DNA of 64,000 bases from Bryobacteraceae bacterium (GTDB lineage Bacteria; Acidobacteriota; Terriglobia; Bryobacterales; Bryobacteraceae): NCBI GenBank assembly GCA_025055455.1, contig JANWXD010000001.1, positions 124,001 to 188,000 on the forward strand, in the 5' to 3' direction. The translations under genes and the position numbers were made by a program. How positions within the stretch are numbered: the stretch's first letter is position 1; each line of letters starts with the position of its first letter. This document shows, in pieces, positions 52,736 through 59,393 of the stretch. The notes under the pieces were generated by a model. The model was not told the origin of the DNA and did not search any database. It saw only the letters and a program-made list of their open reading frames with translations.

Positions 52736-54508
52736 TCAAGGCGCCACAGTAAGCGCCACCGGGGCGGTCGTGACGCCGGCGATCTCGGCGACGACGGCCG
52801 CATCGCCGGGCGACACGCCTTGGGGAACAACCAGATTGAACTGATATAACCCCGGCCCGACGAGCCCGGCGAACTCGACCGTGGCGGCGACCCCTCCCAC
52901 GGTTACCTGGACGGGTTCGGTGAGCGGTGCAGCGCCCGAGAACGCCCGCCCCGCCGGGACCTGTGGAGTCGTGGGCCCGAAGCCAGTGCCGAACAAGAGC
53001 ACGCGTTCACCAGGCTTGGCCGGCCGCGCCGCAACCGCTCCCCCGAACCACTCCGGACGGCCCACGTAGACCACGTGGCCGTGTTCGAGCTGTGCGAAAA
53101 CCGCCGCGACAAACCGTCCTCCCTCTTGTGGGAACCGGAAGAATGCCGGCGCGATTCGGCGAACCTGCGCCGTGAAGGCGCCGCTCCGCTGGCCGCGGTG
53201 GATCACCTCCACCCGTACCGAGCCCTCCGGCAGCCCGTCGGGAGTTTGAACGTTCAGTTGCCCCGGACTGACGTAGTACACCCACGCCGGTTTGCCATCG
53301 AATTCCACACGAACCCCGTCCAGTTCGGCCGGCAGGACTCCGTCTCGGATTTCCTCCTCGCGCCAGATCCGGGTGGTCGTGGCCAAGTCCTGGCCGTAGA
53401 TGCTGACCCACGCGCCGGAGCTGATCCGCGGCTCGAAGCTCGCGCCATTGGTCACGGCCTCGATGTTCGGGTGGTAACCCAAATCCCGGCGGATGCCCTC
53501 ACCGCGCGTACGGAAGAACGCCACGATCGGAAAGTGGTCCGAGGTAAGGGTGATTTCGGGGTCGTCGGGGTGGTCGGTGAGGATTTCGGGCTGCACCCGG
53601 CGCGCCTGAATGAGCTCTTCCAGCGCGTCGGCGGAAAAGACGCAGTGGTCGTAGTTGCTTACGGGCTGTCCTAGACGGTTCCGGGTGGTCGGCTCGTGGA
53701 CCGTGACCACGAACCGCCGCTCCCCGGACTGAAATCGCGGGTCCGTATCGAAGAGCGCATCCAGCGTAATGCCATCGCGTCCGGTCTGGCCGCTGAGCCG
53801 CGACGGAATGTTGAAGTCGCCGCACAGGATCACATCCGGATCGTGCCCCGGAGCGCGAAAGTACTCGTCCAGGAAATCCAGGATCACGCGCAGCTCCCGG
53901 GCCGATTGCCGTGTGTCCCCGTCAGCGAAGGTCAGGTGAAGCGTGAGGAGCGTGAAATCGAAATCCCCCACCGCCACATGGGCCGCTAATGGAGGATGAA
54001 CCGCTCGCGATGGATCCGTGACGATCCGCCCCGTGGCGCTTACTTCGCGGGTCACGAACAGCGGTACAGGGTTGCGGACCAGGAGGCCTCGCTCGTACCA
54101 AAGCCCGTTGTCTTGAGCGTCAGTGGTGTCGAAAAAGGCGTAGCGCCAGCGGCCGGCGCCGCCGGGCAGCAAGCCTTGCAACACAGCCGCGTGAGCGCTG
54201 TTGGCCACCTCCTGCGCCGCCAGTAACCGGTAAGTCCCGGCGAACAATCGCCGCAGGGCCGCCCCCACCATGGCTGGCCGGATTGAACCGGCGCTGTCGG
54301 TGGCGCCTCCCTGCACGTTCCAACTGATCAGTGCGAGCCAGCCTGTGGGAATTGGGGCGCGGTCGTCAGGCACCTCGGGAAGCGGCGAAACGAGCGGGTT
54401 CGTTTTGAGCTCCGCCAGACGCGCCTCGACCAGCGGGCCGGCGCCGTCCTGGGCCGGAAGCGTCCAGCACGCCGCCAGAAACACCCAGGCCGCGCTCGTT
54501 TTTTTCAT
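52736..54508 (-). CDS. Secreted endonuclease/exonuclease/phosphatase-like protein with Solibacter C-terminal domain
   Basis: A 590-residue secreted protein. A signal peptide (SAAWVFLAACWTLPAQ) is followed, from about residue 60 to 335, by an EEP-type domain: ISWNVQGG, LAAQEV, VILCGDFNIPSR, DHCVFSAD and SDHFPIVAFF. These match the DNase I-like catalytic N, E, D-x-N and S-D-H residues. The C-terminal ~240 residues are a repeat-rich beta region with YYVSPGQLNVQTPDGLPEG, then ERVLLFGTGFGPTTPQVPAG, VTVGGVAATVEFAG and PGLYQFNLVVPQGV. This strongly resembles TIGR03437, a C-terminal domain described from Solibacter. Expected role: an exported nuclease or phosphatase; the C-terminal part may retain it at the cell surface or bind substrate, which is inference. 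Confidence 0.88.
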   Translation of the reverse strand: MKKTSAAWVFLAACWTLPAQDGAGPLVEARLAELKTNPLVSPLPEVPDDRAPIPTGWLALISWNVQGGATDSAGSIRPAMVGAALRRLFAGTYRLLAAQEVANSAHAAVLQGLLPGGAGRWRYAFFDTTDAQDNGLWYERGLLVRNPVPLFVTREVSATGRIVTDPSRAVHPPLAAHVAVGDFDFTLLTLHLTFADGDTRQSARELRVILDFLDEYFRAPGHDPDVILCGDFNIPSRLSGQTGRDGITLDALFDTDPRFQSGERRFVVTVHEPTTRNRLGQPVSNYDHCVFSADALEELIQARRVQPEILTDHPDDPEITLTSDHFPIVAFFRTRGEGIRRDLGYHPNIEAVTNGASFEPRISSGAWVSIYGQDLATTTRIWREEEIRDGVLPAELDGVRVEFDGKPAWVYYVSPGQLNVQTPDGLPEGSVRVEVIHRGQRSGAFTAQVRRIAPAFFRFPQEGGRFVAAVFAQLEHGHVVYVGRPEWFGGAVAARPAKPGERVLLFGTGFGPTTPQVPAGRAFSGAAPLTEPVQVTVGGVAATVEFAGLVGPGLYQFNLVVPQGVSPGDAAVVAEIAGVTTAPVALTVAP

Positions 54509-54527: not shown

Positions 54528-54556
54528 TTGACATGCCCCCGAAATCAGGATAGACT
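54528..54556 (+). promoter_or_regulatory. Promoter of the receptor at 54770, far upstream
   Basis: TTGACA (54528-54533), 17 nt, TAGACT (54551-54556). It predicts a 5' leader of about 200 nt, unusual beside the nearly leaderless genes elsewhere in the window. Confidence 0.6.
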
Positions 54557-54587
54557 CGTCCGCACGGAGGGGCTACATGCCCGAACA

Positions 54588-54660
54588 CCAGGAAGCAGCC
54601 GCTGGGCCGACTGCTCCTGATCCAAAAGGAACTTCCACATCCCAGGTGTGGATGGGAACG
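54588..54660 (+). promoter_or_regulatory. Structured 5' leader of the receptor gene, two potential hairpins
   Basis: CAGGAAGCAG and CTGCTCCTG can form a 9-bp stem with one bulged A and a 12-nt loop. Directly after it, TTCCACATCC and GGATGGGAA, with CCACA/TGTGG nested, form a second imperfect stem. Neither is followed by a T-run. Could be a riboswitch-like or protein-binding leader. I do not recognise a known riboswitch consensus. Confidence 0.4.
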
Positions 54661-54769
54661 GTCAACCCCAAAAGGTCCACCCAGCGATGAGCTGCACATC
54701 CTGAAGCCTTGGATATGAGCGTGTTACGGTATTGTAAAGGAATCAATGCTACTCGAGGGAGGGATCCCC

Positions 54770-57700
54770 ATGAAGCGATTCGGTCGGTCGGCAGCAATCG
54801 CCCTGGCAAGTACTCTGCTTGCTGTTTCCGCTTTTGCCCAAGCCACGGCCCAGCTCAGTGGCTCGGTCAACGACGCAACCGGGGCCGTCATTCCGGGTGC
54901 GGACGTCATCGTGACCCACACGGCGACCGGCGTCGAACGCCGCGCCCAGACCAACGAACTCGGTCTGTACGCCATTCCATTCCTGCCGCCGGGTGAATAC
55001 CGTGTGGTGGTGCAAAAAACCGGCTTTCGGCAGGCAACCCGGGAGGCGGTTCGCCTGGAAGTCAACCAAGTGGCTCGGCTCGACTTCACGCTGGAGTTAG
55101 GCTCGGTCACCGAAACCGTCGAAGTCCGCGGCGTGGTCCCGCTCATCGAATCGGAATCCTCGGCTGTGGGTCAGGTGATCGAAACCAAAGCCATCGAAGA
55201 TCTGCCGCTCAACGGCCGCAATTTCGTGCAACTGGCGATCCTGGGACCTGGCGTCGTGGGCGTGGGCTATGGCGCCCGGGGCACGATCATGAGCGGCACG
55301 CGCCCCGACGACCTGCGTCCCGGCTCGGAGCTGTTCTCCAACGGCAACCGGGAGGGCTCCAACAACTTCCTGATGGACGGCATCGACAACAACGAGCGGC
55401 TCACGCTGTCCATCGTGTTGCGACCCTCGGTGGAATCGGTGCGGGAATTCAAGATTCAGACCTCGATGTTCGCCGCCGACCAGGGTCGCAATGCCGGCGC
55501 CACCATCAACGTGATCACCAAATCGGGCTCCAACGAGTGGCACGGATCACTGTACGAATTCTTGCGCAACGACCGCTTCGATGCGCGCAACTACTTTGCC
55601 AGCCCCCAAGCACCTAAGCCTGCCTTTCGGCAGAACCAATTCGGCGGCAGCCTCGGCGGCCGCATCGTGCCTAACAAGCTGTTTTTCTTCGGCAACTACG
55701 AAGGGTTCCGGCGCCGCCAGGAGCGAACCTTCGTCAACACCGTACCGCTGCCCGAGGTGCGGCAGGGAGATTTCTCGCGGCTCCGGGATATTTTCGATCC
55801 CTGGACCACGCGAGCTCAGGCCGGAACGGCGACGGGCTATGTTCGGGATCCTTTCCCGAACCGGCGGATCCCAGCGAACCGGTTCGACGCCGTCACCGGG
55901 CGGCTGATTCAAGCCTATCCGATGCCGCAGGTGGACCGCCTCACCGCCAATCACATCTCCAGCCCGAAAGAAAAACAGCGCTGGAACCAAGGCGACGTGC
56001 GGTTGGATTGGAACTGGAACGAGCGGAACCTCGTCTTCGGCCGTTTCTCCCGGCAGGACACCGTCACCACGCGGCCGTCCACGTTCCCGGATGCGCAGAT
56101 CCCCGGCTTTCAGGGACGCGTGGGCCTGGGCAATGAGGACACCTTCGCTGGCGATTCGACTCTGAAGGCCTATCACACCGTGGCCAGCTGGATCCGTACC
56201 TTCACTCCGAACTTCATCATGGAGGCCAAGCTCGGGTTTAGCCGTTTCGACTTGGACTATCGGCAGGAGGGTGCTGCTGATGGCGCGCGTCTGGGCGAAA
56301 AGCTCGGCGTGCGCGGTTCCAATCAAGGCCCACGCTCCGACGGCATTCCCATCTTTAGCCCGGCCGGCTACACCGGAATCGGACAGACCCGCTCGCTGCC
56401 CATCGTGCGCGTGGAGAACACCTTCCACCCCCGCGCGGACTTTACCCACCTGCGCGGCCCCCATTCGCTCAAGTTCGGTTTGGAGGCCCGGCGCCGACAG
56501 CTCACGCAGTACCAGACCAACCGCGGCAATGGGCGCTTCAACTTCTCCAGCATCTTCGTGAACAACCCGAACCAGACGGCCAACACGGGCGACGCCATGG
56601 CCGCCTTCCTCCTGGGAACGGCGTCGGTGATCGAGCAGGATTTCACCCTGGTGTTCCCGGGTTTCCGCCAAACCGAGTGGGGCCTGTATCTGCATGACGA
56701 TTGGAAGGTCACCCCGTGGCTGACGCTGAATGCGGGCCTGCGGTACGAGTACGACACGCCGCTGGTGGAGGTGGCCAATCGCCAGACGAATTTCGATGTC
56801 GTCACCGGCAAGCTGTTGATCGCCGGATTCAACACCGACCGCGCCACGGGCGTCCAGCCCGACCGCAACAATTTCGCGCCACGGCTCGGCTTTGCCATTC
56901 GCTTACGCCAAAGCACCGTCTTGCGCGGCGGCTACGGCATTTTCTACAACCCCGCCGGTAGCGAGGCGGTCTACATGCGCCGTCACCGCCAGCTTCCCTT
57001 CGGGCCGATCAACGTGGTGGACATCAATCAGTTTTCGGCGAATCCTCGCCGCGTGCAGGATGGGCTCGACCCGATTCCGGTGCTCGATTTCAACGTCGTG
57101 GCCAACAACCCGCAAGGGGGGATGCTGGCCGTTGTGCCGAACCTGCGATCGGGCTACACGCAACAGTACATGTTGCAAATTCAGCAGCAGCTTCCCAAAG
57201 AGATGGTGTTCAAAATCGGTTTCGTCGGCAATCTGGGGCGGCGGCTCGATACGACCTACGATTTCAACCAGCCGGAACCCGGACCTGGCGCCCCCGGTCC
57301 GCGGCGGCCCCTCTATCGGATCGCTCCCAACGTGGTCGGCGTCACGTATAACGTCTCGGACGGCAAGTCCAATTACAACTCGCTCCAGGCAACTCTGGAG
57401 CGGCGATTCGCCGGCGGATTGGGCTTTGTCACGGCCTACACGTGGTCCCATTCCATTGACGACGTGCCGAACGCCTTTGGCGGCGCGGCCAACGGCCCGA
57501 TTCCTCAAGATCGCCGCTGCCGTCAGTGCGACCGCGCCAGCAGCGGTTTCGACATTCGGCACCGCTTGGTCCACAGCATGAATTGGGCCTTACCCTTCGG
57601 CCGGGGACGCAAGTGGCAGTTCGATTCGCGCGCCGCGAACCTGCTCCTCGGCGGCTGGGATACCAACCTCATCTTGACCGCCCAGACGGGCCTCCCCTTC

Positions 57701-58099
57701 ACGCCCACCTTGCTGACCTCGGTCTCGAACGCCGGTGCGAGCCGGCCGGACCGCTTGAAGAGCGGCAAACTGAGCAATCCCGATCCGGCCCGGTGGTTCG
57801 ACACCTCGTTCAACGCGCCCGACGCCGCCTGGGGCGTGCCGCGCCAGTTCACCTTCGGCAATGCAGGGCGCAACATCCTCTACGGGCCCGGACGCGTGAA
57901 CTTCGACTGGTCGTTTTTCAAGGATCTGTCATGGAGCGAGCGGTGGCGCTTGCAATTCCGGGCGGAGATTTTCAACATCTTCAACACGCCGCAATTCGAT
58001 TTGCCCAACGCGAGCATCGGCGACCCGGGCGCCGGCCGCATCACGAGCATCGTGGGCAACCCGCGTCAGGTACAGTTCGCGTTGCGTTTGGCGTTCTGA
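54770..58099 (+). CDS. Oar-like TonB-dependent receptor (full length)
   Basis: A 1109-residue receptor from the ATG at 54770, chosen because GGGAGG sits 7 nt upstream and MKRFGRSAAIALASTLLAVSA is a clean signal peptide. A carboxypeptidase-regulatory-like domain (LSGSVNDATGAVIPGADVIV, then GLYAIPFLPPGEYRVVV) is followed by a plug. The plug has IEDLPLNGRNFVQLAIL, FLMDGIDNNERL and SVREFKIQTSMFAADQGRNAGATINVITKSG, and the large barrel ends VQFALRLAF. The DLPLNGRNF stretch is characteristic of Oar-like receptors. It precedes the DgoD-like enzyme by 46 nt and is preceded by a consensus promoter and a structured leader. Likely imports a sugar acid or related ligand; inference from the neighbour. Confidence 0.93.
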   Translation: MKRFGRSAAIALASTLLAVSAFAQATAQLSGSVNDATGAVIPGADVIVTHTATGVERRAQTNELGLYAIPFLPPGEYRVVVQKTGFRQATREAVRLEVNQVARLDFTLELGSVTETVEVRGVVPLIESESSAVGQVIETKAIEDLPLNGRNFVQLAILGPGVVGVGYGARGTIMSGTRPDDLRPGSELFSNGNREGSNNFLMDGIDNNERLTLSIVLRPSVESVREFKIQTSMFAADQGRNAGATINVITKSGSNEWHGSLYEFLRNDRFDARNYFASPQAPKPAFRQNQFGGSLGGRIVPNKLFFFGNYEGFRRRQERTFVNTVPLPEVRQGDFSRLRDIFDPWTTRAQAGTATGYVRDPFPNRRIPANRFDAVTGRLIQAYPMPQVDRLTANHISSPKEKQRWNQGDVRLDWNWNERNLVFGRFSRQDTVTTRPSTFPDAQIPGFQGRVGLGNEDTFAGDSTLKAYHTVASWIRTFTPNFIMEAKLGFSRFDLDYRQEGAADGARLGEKLGVRGSNQGPRSDGIPIFSPAGYTGIGQTRSLPIVRVENTFHPRADFTHLRGPHSLKFGLEARRRQLTQYQTNRGNGRFNFSSIFVNNPNQTANTGDAMAAFLLGTASVIEQDFTLVFPGFRQTEWGLYLHDDWKVTPWLTLNAGLRYEYDTPLVEVANRQTNFDVVTGKLLIAGFNTDRATGVQPDRNNFAPRLGFAIRLRQSTVLRGGYGIFYNPAGSEAVYMRRHRQLPFGPINVVDINQFSANPRRVQDGLDPIPVLDFNVVANNPQGGMLAVVPNLRSGYTQQYMLQIQQQLPKEMVFKIGFVGNLGRRLDTTYDFNQPEPGPGAPGPRRPLYRIAPNVVGVTYNVSDGKSNYNSLQATLERRFAGGLGFVTAYTWSHSIDDVPNAFGGAANGPIPQDRRCRQCDRASSGFDIRHRLVHSMNWALPFGRGRKWQFDSRAANLLLGGWDTNLILTAQTGLPFTPTLLTSVSNAGASRPDRLKSGKLSNPDPARWFDTSFNAPDAAWGVPRQFTFGNAGRNILYGPGRVNFDWSFFKDLSWSERWRLQFRAEIFNIFNTPQFDLPNASIGDPGAGRITSIVGNPRQVQFALRLAF

Positions 58100-58145
58100 G
58101 CCGATGTCGCGCACCGAAAACCGTTGCTCGCAAGGAGAGACGCAC

Positions 58146-59393
58146 GTGACGAAGATGTCCACTCGGCTGGGTCGCCGTTCGGTTGTCGCCGGCTTGTTCG
58201 CTAGCCTGGGCTGGAAAGCCTTCGGCCGTGCCGAAGCCGCCGTGCAGCAGACCGTCGGCAAGGACGCGCCCATCCAGCCCAAGGACAAACTCCAGATCAC
58301 CAAGCTGGAGATGTTCCTGGTCAAGCCGCGCTGGCTGTTCCTGAAGATTCACACCAATGCGGGAATCGTGGGATTGGGCGAGCCGATTCTGGAAGGCCGG
58401 GCCCGCACTTGCATGGAGGCGGTTCGCGAAATCGAGCCGTACCTGATCGGCAAAGATCCTCGGCAGGTCGTCCACCACTGGCAGGCGATCTACCGCCACG
58501 CCTTCTACCGCGGCGGCGAGATTCTGACCAGCGCGTTGAGCGGCATCGACATCGCGCTGTGGGACATCAAAGGGAAGGCCTTGGGTGTGCCCATTTACGA
58601 GCTGCTCGGCGGACCCACCCGCAACCGCGTGCGCGTCTACGCCCACGCGCGCACGCCCGAGCAGATCAAAGCCGGAATCGCCCGCGGGTTCAAGGCCTTC
58701 AAAACCGGACCGGCCACCAGGCGGCCGGCGCGATACGTGGAGACGCCGGCGCAGGTGCAATACGCCGCCGAGAAGTTTGCGGAACTCCGCAAAGCCGCCG
58801 GCAACGACGTGGATATCGCCATCGACTTCCATGGAGCGATCAGCCCGGCCACGGCCAAACTGCTGATCAAGGCCCTCGAGCCGTATCAGCCCATGTTCGT
58901 CGAGGAGCCTTGTCTGCACCAGAACCACGACGTGATGGCCGAGATCGCCCGCGGAACGCACCTGCCGATCGCCACCGGTGAGCGCGTCTTCACCAAGTGG
59001 GGTTTCCGGGAGGTTCTGGAGAAGCGAGCCGCCACGATCCTTCAACCCGACCTCTGCCACGCCGGCGGCATTACCGAGGTGCGCCTCATTGCCGGCATGG
59101 CCGAGGCGTACTATGCGGCCATCGCTCCGCACAACCCCCTGGGGCCGATCTCGTTGGCCGCCGGCATCCAGATTGCGGCTTCGATCCCCAATTTCCTCGT
59201 CCAGGAACAAGTCACGCTCGGCGAAGGATACCTGAAAAAACCTTTCGTGGTGCGCGACGGTTTCGTGGACATTCCCACGGGACCGGGTCTCGGCATCGAG
59301 CTGGACGAGAACGCCCTGGCGGACAAGATCGGCCACGACTGGCGCAATCCGGAAACGTACGACCCCGACGACGGCAGCGTGGTGGATTGGTAA
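58146..59393 (+). CDS. Enolase-superfamily sugar-acid dehydratase, D-galactonate dehydratase-like, with an export signal
   Basis: A 415-residue protein. The GTG at 58146 has AAGGAGA 8 nt upstream and is preferred to the ATG at 58104. An N-terminal twin-arginine-like signal (TRLGRRSVVAGLFASLG) runs to about residue 30. The enolase core has LTSALSGIDIALWDIKGKALG, VDIAIDFHGAIS (metal-binding Asp plus His, as in DgoD), MFVEEPCL (Glu), LPIATGERVFTKWGF (Glu), LQPDLCHAGGITE (Asp) and APHNPLGPISLA (His). These fit mandelate racemase/muconate lactonizing group members of the DgoD/RspA type. Cytosolic DgoD normally dehydrates galactonate; an exported version is unusual. Immediately downstream of a TonB-dependent receptor. 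Confidence 0.85.
   Translation: MTKMSTRLGRRSVVAGLFASLGWKAFGRAEAAVQQTVGKDAPIQPKDKLQITKLEMFLVKPRWLFLKIHTNAGIVGLGEPILEGRARTCMEAVREIEPYLIGKDPRQVVHHWQAIYRHAFYRGGEILTSALSGIDIALWDIKGKALGVPIYELLGGPTRNRVRVYAHARTPEQIKAGIARGFKAFKTGPATRRPARYVETPAQVQYAAEKFAELRKAAGNDVDIAIDFHGAISPATAKLLIKALEPYQPMFVEEPCLHQNHDVMAEIARGTHLPIATGERVFTKWGFREVLEKRAATILQPDLCHAGGITEVRLIAGMAEAYYAAIAPHNPLGPISLAAGIQIAASIPNFLVQEQVTLGEGYLKKPFVVRDGFVDIPTGPGLGIELDENALADKIGHDWRNPETYDPDDGSVVDW

Follow-up and report, generated by a model that had tools for sequence, protein, structure and literature searches.

The window analysed here is a 64,000-nt stretch from the 3.9-Mb draft genome (G000) of a Bryobacteraceae bacterium, a soil acidobacterium. 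We examined the region upstream of a TonB-dependent receptor gene in this window, for which the following features were found or predicted.

52736–54508, minus strand: secreted endonuclease/exonuclease/phosphatase with a Solibacter C-terminal domain, the divergent neighbour
54528–54556, plus strand: sigma-70-type promoter TTGACA-17-TAGACT, recognised by consensus match and by a matrix from sister genes
54563–54769, plus strand: predicted 5' leader of the receptor mRNA, about 207 nt, deduced from the promoter and the start codon
54566–54690, plus strand: ribosome site (GGAGG at 54566) with a 37-codon open frame at 54577–54690, MPEHQEAAAGPTAPDPKGTSTSQVWMGTVNPKRSTQR
54589–54703, plus strand: predicted folded domain of 115 nt, in which three short hairpins are enclosed by an interrupted helix of about 21 pairs, 54589–54611 against 54675–54703
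54757–54763, plus strand: Shine-Dalgarno sequence of the receptor gene, assigned from the sequence
54770–58099, plus strand: TonB-dependent receptor of 1109 aa, with an N-terminal carboxypeptidase-regulatory-like domain (PF13620) and an OMP_b-brl_4 barrel
58104–59393, plus strand: enolase-superfamily enzyme of the galactonate dehydratase (DgoD) type, directly 3' of the receptor gene

The presence of both the PF13620 domain and the OMP_b-brl_4 barrel identifies the protein as a member of the receptor family. Its start codon is the ATG at 54770; GGAGG precedes this by seven bases, and the first codons encode a signal peptide. A 64% identical receptor occurs in a Bryobacter genome. The enzyme encoded downstream clears the NCBIfam cut-off for galactonate dehydratase, and its gene is possibly cotranscribed with that of the receptor. 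The same two genes (54770–59393 here) are paired in the closest ortholog locus, L032, in L045, where the enzyme gene lies upstream of the receptor gene, and apparently in L048; the pairing suggests a cassette for the uptake and breakdown of a sugar acid.

On the other side, the divergent gene starts at 54508, 20 nt from the promoter, and the gap of 261 nt between the divergent genes contains both the promoter and the leader. The product of this gene (52736–54508) combines an endonuclease/exonuclease/phosphatase domain, a TIG region and the Solibacter C-terminal domain. Among 100 relatives searched, the C-terminal part alone was matched and no full-length counterpart was found, and an attempt to trace the history of the promoter through this gene failed since the matches were limited to its shared C-terminal domain.

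The promoter consists of two hexamers near TTGACA and TATAAT, whose 17-nt spacer falls within the 16–18 nt expected of the sigma-70 type. It agrees with the consensus at 10 of 12 positions and is the sole such match in 1.7 kb, where 0.3 would be expected by chance. We also built a promoter matrix from the upstream sites of orthologs and same-genome paralogs, leaving out the receptor gene of the window. With this matrix the site at 54528–54556 scored 19.7, a value reached by 0 of 500 shuffles and the highest among the four sites scoring at least 13 in the whole 64 kb, whereas the top-scoring site in the 110 nt next to the ATG reached 0.3, which 411 of 500 shuffles equalled or exceeded. The matrix score and the lack of a proximal rival indicate that the distal promoter at 54528–54556 is probably the one in use for the receptor gene; transcription is accordingly predicted, from the sequence, to start near 54563. 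The initial annotation had placed a consensus-spaced promoter about 210 nt upstream of the start codon, and this is confirmed, the distance from the end of the −10 hexamer to the ATG being 213 nt.

Such a distance is unusual for this genome. Its 3.9 Mb hold about 55 genes for TonB-dependent receptors of one superfamily, and about half of these have a recognisable promoter of the form TTGAC(N)-17/18-TANNNT roughly 100 nt or less from the start. Of 55 genes examined, 27 have a site scoring at least 13. In 26 of these 27 the end of the −10 hexamer lies 16–106 nt from the ATG, against 213 nt here, with start codons set by a simple rule (ribosome site and expected position), so that individual distances may be off. 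The matrix was trained on near-start sites and may favour them; a count with a fixed, untrained consensus is free of this weakness and places 20 of 23 receptor-gene sites no more than 100 nt from the ATG, compared with 0.7 expected from shuffles. This clustering near the ATG indicates that the promoter type is really used in the receptor family. The next longest spacings are 196 nt at L048, in another genome, and 195 nt at a marginal site before L139 scoring just under 13. The earlier observation that the leader stands out in length therefore holds within the receptor family. As for the window in general, two further strong sites are located ahead of genes, 30 and 44 nt from the starts. For comparison, the median leaders reported are 24 nt in Flavobacterium psychrophilum and 32 nt in Bacteroides thetaiotaomicron (PMC9723704). 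Taken together, the quality of the promoter, the absence of a proximal one and the outlying spacing give good support at the sequence level to a long leader, which is likely to be real.

The folding of this leader is less distinctive. The whole leader, extended by 30 nt into the gene, is no more stable than its shuffles (z −0.43). Two stems had been drawn at 54588–54660, and two hairpins can indeed be drawn there, but the fold of the corresponding stretch is unremarkable (54580–54670, z −1.1, with 19 of 200 shuffles equally good); the two stems are better described as the single domain at 54589–54703. The stretch 54586–54706 gave z −3.9, which none of 200 shuffles matched, and z for the domain is about −4 to −5, near −5 with its own boundaries. 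These boundaries were picked after the fold had been seen, and matched controls were used for that reason. When each of 260 random stretches of the window was allowed its own best domain, 1.9% matched the domain; in a scan at fixed offsets 8% of stretches did so, and among random stretches of similar G+C content 0.9% had an energy as low. When 87 receptor genes were compared for the folding of their upstream regions, the domain came tenth (a slightly different domain was chosen in this run). About 10% of the receptor-gene upstream regions hold domains at least as stable, and some of these lie upstream of the gene's predicted promoter. Against matched controls the domain thus falls in about the top 1–10%, and the leader fold is at the upper end of the ordinary range for this G+C-rich DNA.

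Moreover, no pairing of note was found between the domain and the receptor ribosome site (0.02 expected pairs). For RNAs taken to start at 54563 and at 54742 alike, the unpaired value of the Shine-Dalgarno stretch is 0.45, and masking of the ribosome site by the leader was rejected on the ground of this equality in long and short transcripts. A search of the plus strand of the leader found no intrinsic terminator of the kind that a transcription attenuator would have. In the absence of both a plus-strand terminator and pairing with the ribosome site, there is no visible route from the fold to the control of transcription or translation. On the minus strand, the leader contains a weak terminator-like hairpin at 54634–54652, with six pairs followed by AGTTCCTTTT; two sites of that weak kind occur in 1.7 kb, where 1.7 are expected. 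A mobile element with inverted ends was also considered for the long helix and rejected, as its arms are gapped, no target duplication is seen by eye, and no other copies were found in the genome.

Relatives of the leader were found in none of the genomes searched. Searched as DNA in 237 genomes of the family (E 1e-4), it matched itself alone, and it gave no match to the upstream regions of receptor orthologs and paralogs. A loose search in 101 genomes (E 1) added to the self-match only chance-level matches of about 16–50 nt, the best of which (in G002) sits inside an apparent unrelated coding gene. A covariance model of the domain, which is weak at a distance since it was made from one sequence, found only itself in 61 genomes; in 18 genomes carrying close receptor relatives it yielded a single hit, at chance level (E 9.5). 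No second sequence could be aligned to its stems. No Rfam 15 family matched, cobalamin included, with curated or loose thresholds and not even at E 5. The closest receptor orthologs have short unrelated leaders. At L032, where the receptor is 82% identical, the same enzyme lies downstream and a different gene upstream, and the promoter TTGACA-16-GATATT is 34 nt from the ATG; its leader of roughly 30 nt is unrelated to the one described here. Neither the sequence nor the structure expected upstream of orthologs for a new cis-regulatory RNA was conserved in this comparison with other genera. By sequence comparison, then, the leader is unconserved at the level of other genera.

The leader also contains a start signal of its own. 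GGAGG-6-ATG, with the ATG at 54577, lies 20 nt past the −10 hexamer, the usual position of a gene start here, and a signal of such strength occurs by chance in about 0.6% of 40-nt stretches. The 37-codon frame that follows has a codon usage like that of non-coding frames. In synonymous codon use it falls below every one of 94 equally long gene pieces and resembles wrong frames, and its GC3 is 0.57 as against 0.78–0.87. No credible homolog was found in 237 genomes (best E 0.0075, for one genome). Neither a coding signature nor a conserved frame marks it as a leader peptide or small protein; it was rejected as a gene on its codon usage and the absent homologs, and it is probably no real one. We read the start signal at 54577 as a remnant of another arrangement, or as chance; a young leader peptide is a less likely possibility. 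A comparable layout was observed at L048, a receptor relative with 49% identity (reverse strand, about 1160–1500 in gene orientation). Promoter-like sites lie there about 196 and 254 nt upstream, within tandem near-repeats (TTGACAGCCAGGG..GATGCTGATACATTCG), and are followed by a 53-codon frame that stops 10 nt before the receptor ATG and that has no homologs either.

The explanation that we favour, and consider probable, is that a lineage-specific spacer lies between an ordinary promoter and the receptor gene, and that control at the RNA level need not be invoked. A vegetative-sigma promoter at 54528–54556 would transcribe the receptor gene; a spacer of roughly 150–190 nt that happens to part the promoter from the gene would give the leader of about 207 nt; and translation of the receptor would begin at its own strong ribosome site, immediately ahead of 54770. 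A further ribosome site with an ATG lies 20 nt past the promoter, at the normal spot for a gene start, which suggests that the promoter and its start signal earlier served another frame and may have been placed before the receptor gene through a rearrangement. With known sigma-70 promoters that have a long 5' UTR the locus shares the consensus −35 and −10 hexamers, the 17-nt spacer and the gene's own Shine-Dalgarno site, and it differs from its sister genes, whose leaders are roughly 10–100 nt. Three observations count against a plain spacer, namely the z near −5 of the domain with its own boundaries, equalled by only 1.9% of random stretches, the improbability (about 0.6%) of the post-promoter start signal by chance, and the failure to find any remnant of a missing gene or an inserted element, such as a target duplication or further copies.

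The main alternative to this spacer is the one proposed in the initial annotation, a candidate for RNA-level control of receptor synthesis. The long leader on which the proposal was based is supported, but the control itself is not, and we regard it as possible and not favoured. In its strict form, the domain at 54589–54703 would be a genuine cis-regulatory RNA that detects a signal or serves as a binding site for a protein or small RNA, altering the stability or translation of the receptor mRNA. This we judge unlikely. The outlying leader length, the margin of the domain over its shuffles and its place in the top 2% of random stretches speak for such an element, as do the precedents before TonB-dependent receptors, the cobalamin riboswitch leader of btuB (PMC11162775) and the cobalamin riboswitch ahead of a receptor gene in Flavobacterium (PMC9723704). 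The btuB leader is likewise a structured leader ahead of an outer-membrane receptor gene; the leader here, however, has no Rfam match, no pairing with the ribosome site and no conservation. Its lack of relatives in the genomes searched, the closest orthologs having no such leader, the equal or greater stability of about one in ten receptor upstream regions and the missing terminator likewise argue against control by the domain. Since the comparison was limited to other genera, a recently evolved functional leader would look alike. A genus-specific structured leader, with or without translation of the 37-codon frame, that controls a receptor linked to sugar-acid breakdown is in our estimate decidedly improbable.

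Two other readings concern the transcript and its translation. The receptor gene may be transcribed from a proximal start (54735–54760) by means of another sigma factor or a poor promoter, with the distal promoter silent or making a separate short RNA. Where a promoter is recognisable in orthologs and paralogs, it mostly lies within about 10–100 nt, and a weak TATTGT at 54730–54735 is 34 nt from the ATG, in the usual place; but the best proximal site scores below most shuffles, and distal transcripts, which meet no terminator on the way, should reach the gene anyway; we consider this reading quite unlikely. That the 37 aa of 54577–54690 form a real small protein or leader peptide, made from the leader as the first product of an operon with the receptor, is in our view similarly unlikely. 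Its ribosome site is well placed, six bases before an ATG that is itself 20 nt past the −10 hexamer, and the distant relative L048 is similar in having a strong promoter 196 nt upstream and a 53-codon frame ending 10 nt before the ATG. The codon choice, the GC3 and the lack of credible homologs, also for the L048 frame, oppose it, and the stop lies 79 nt before the receptor start, which leaves no coupling by overlap. Leader-peptide attenuators resemble this locus in a short frame with a good ribosome site before the main gene, but here there is no run of codons for a regulatory amino acid, no terminator and no conservation, and the codon usage is non-coding.

By itself, a promoter unusually far upstream of one of about 55 receptor genes means little, and its interest is low unless congeners show selection on the domain. 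A regulatory leader, if true, would represent an RNA-controlled receptor in a group whose gene control is little known. As a by-product, the analysis indicates that receptor genes in this genome often use sigma-70 promoters of the consensus type and have short leaders, and exceptions such as this one thereby become easy to spot and to test.
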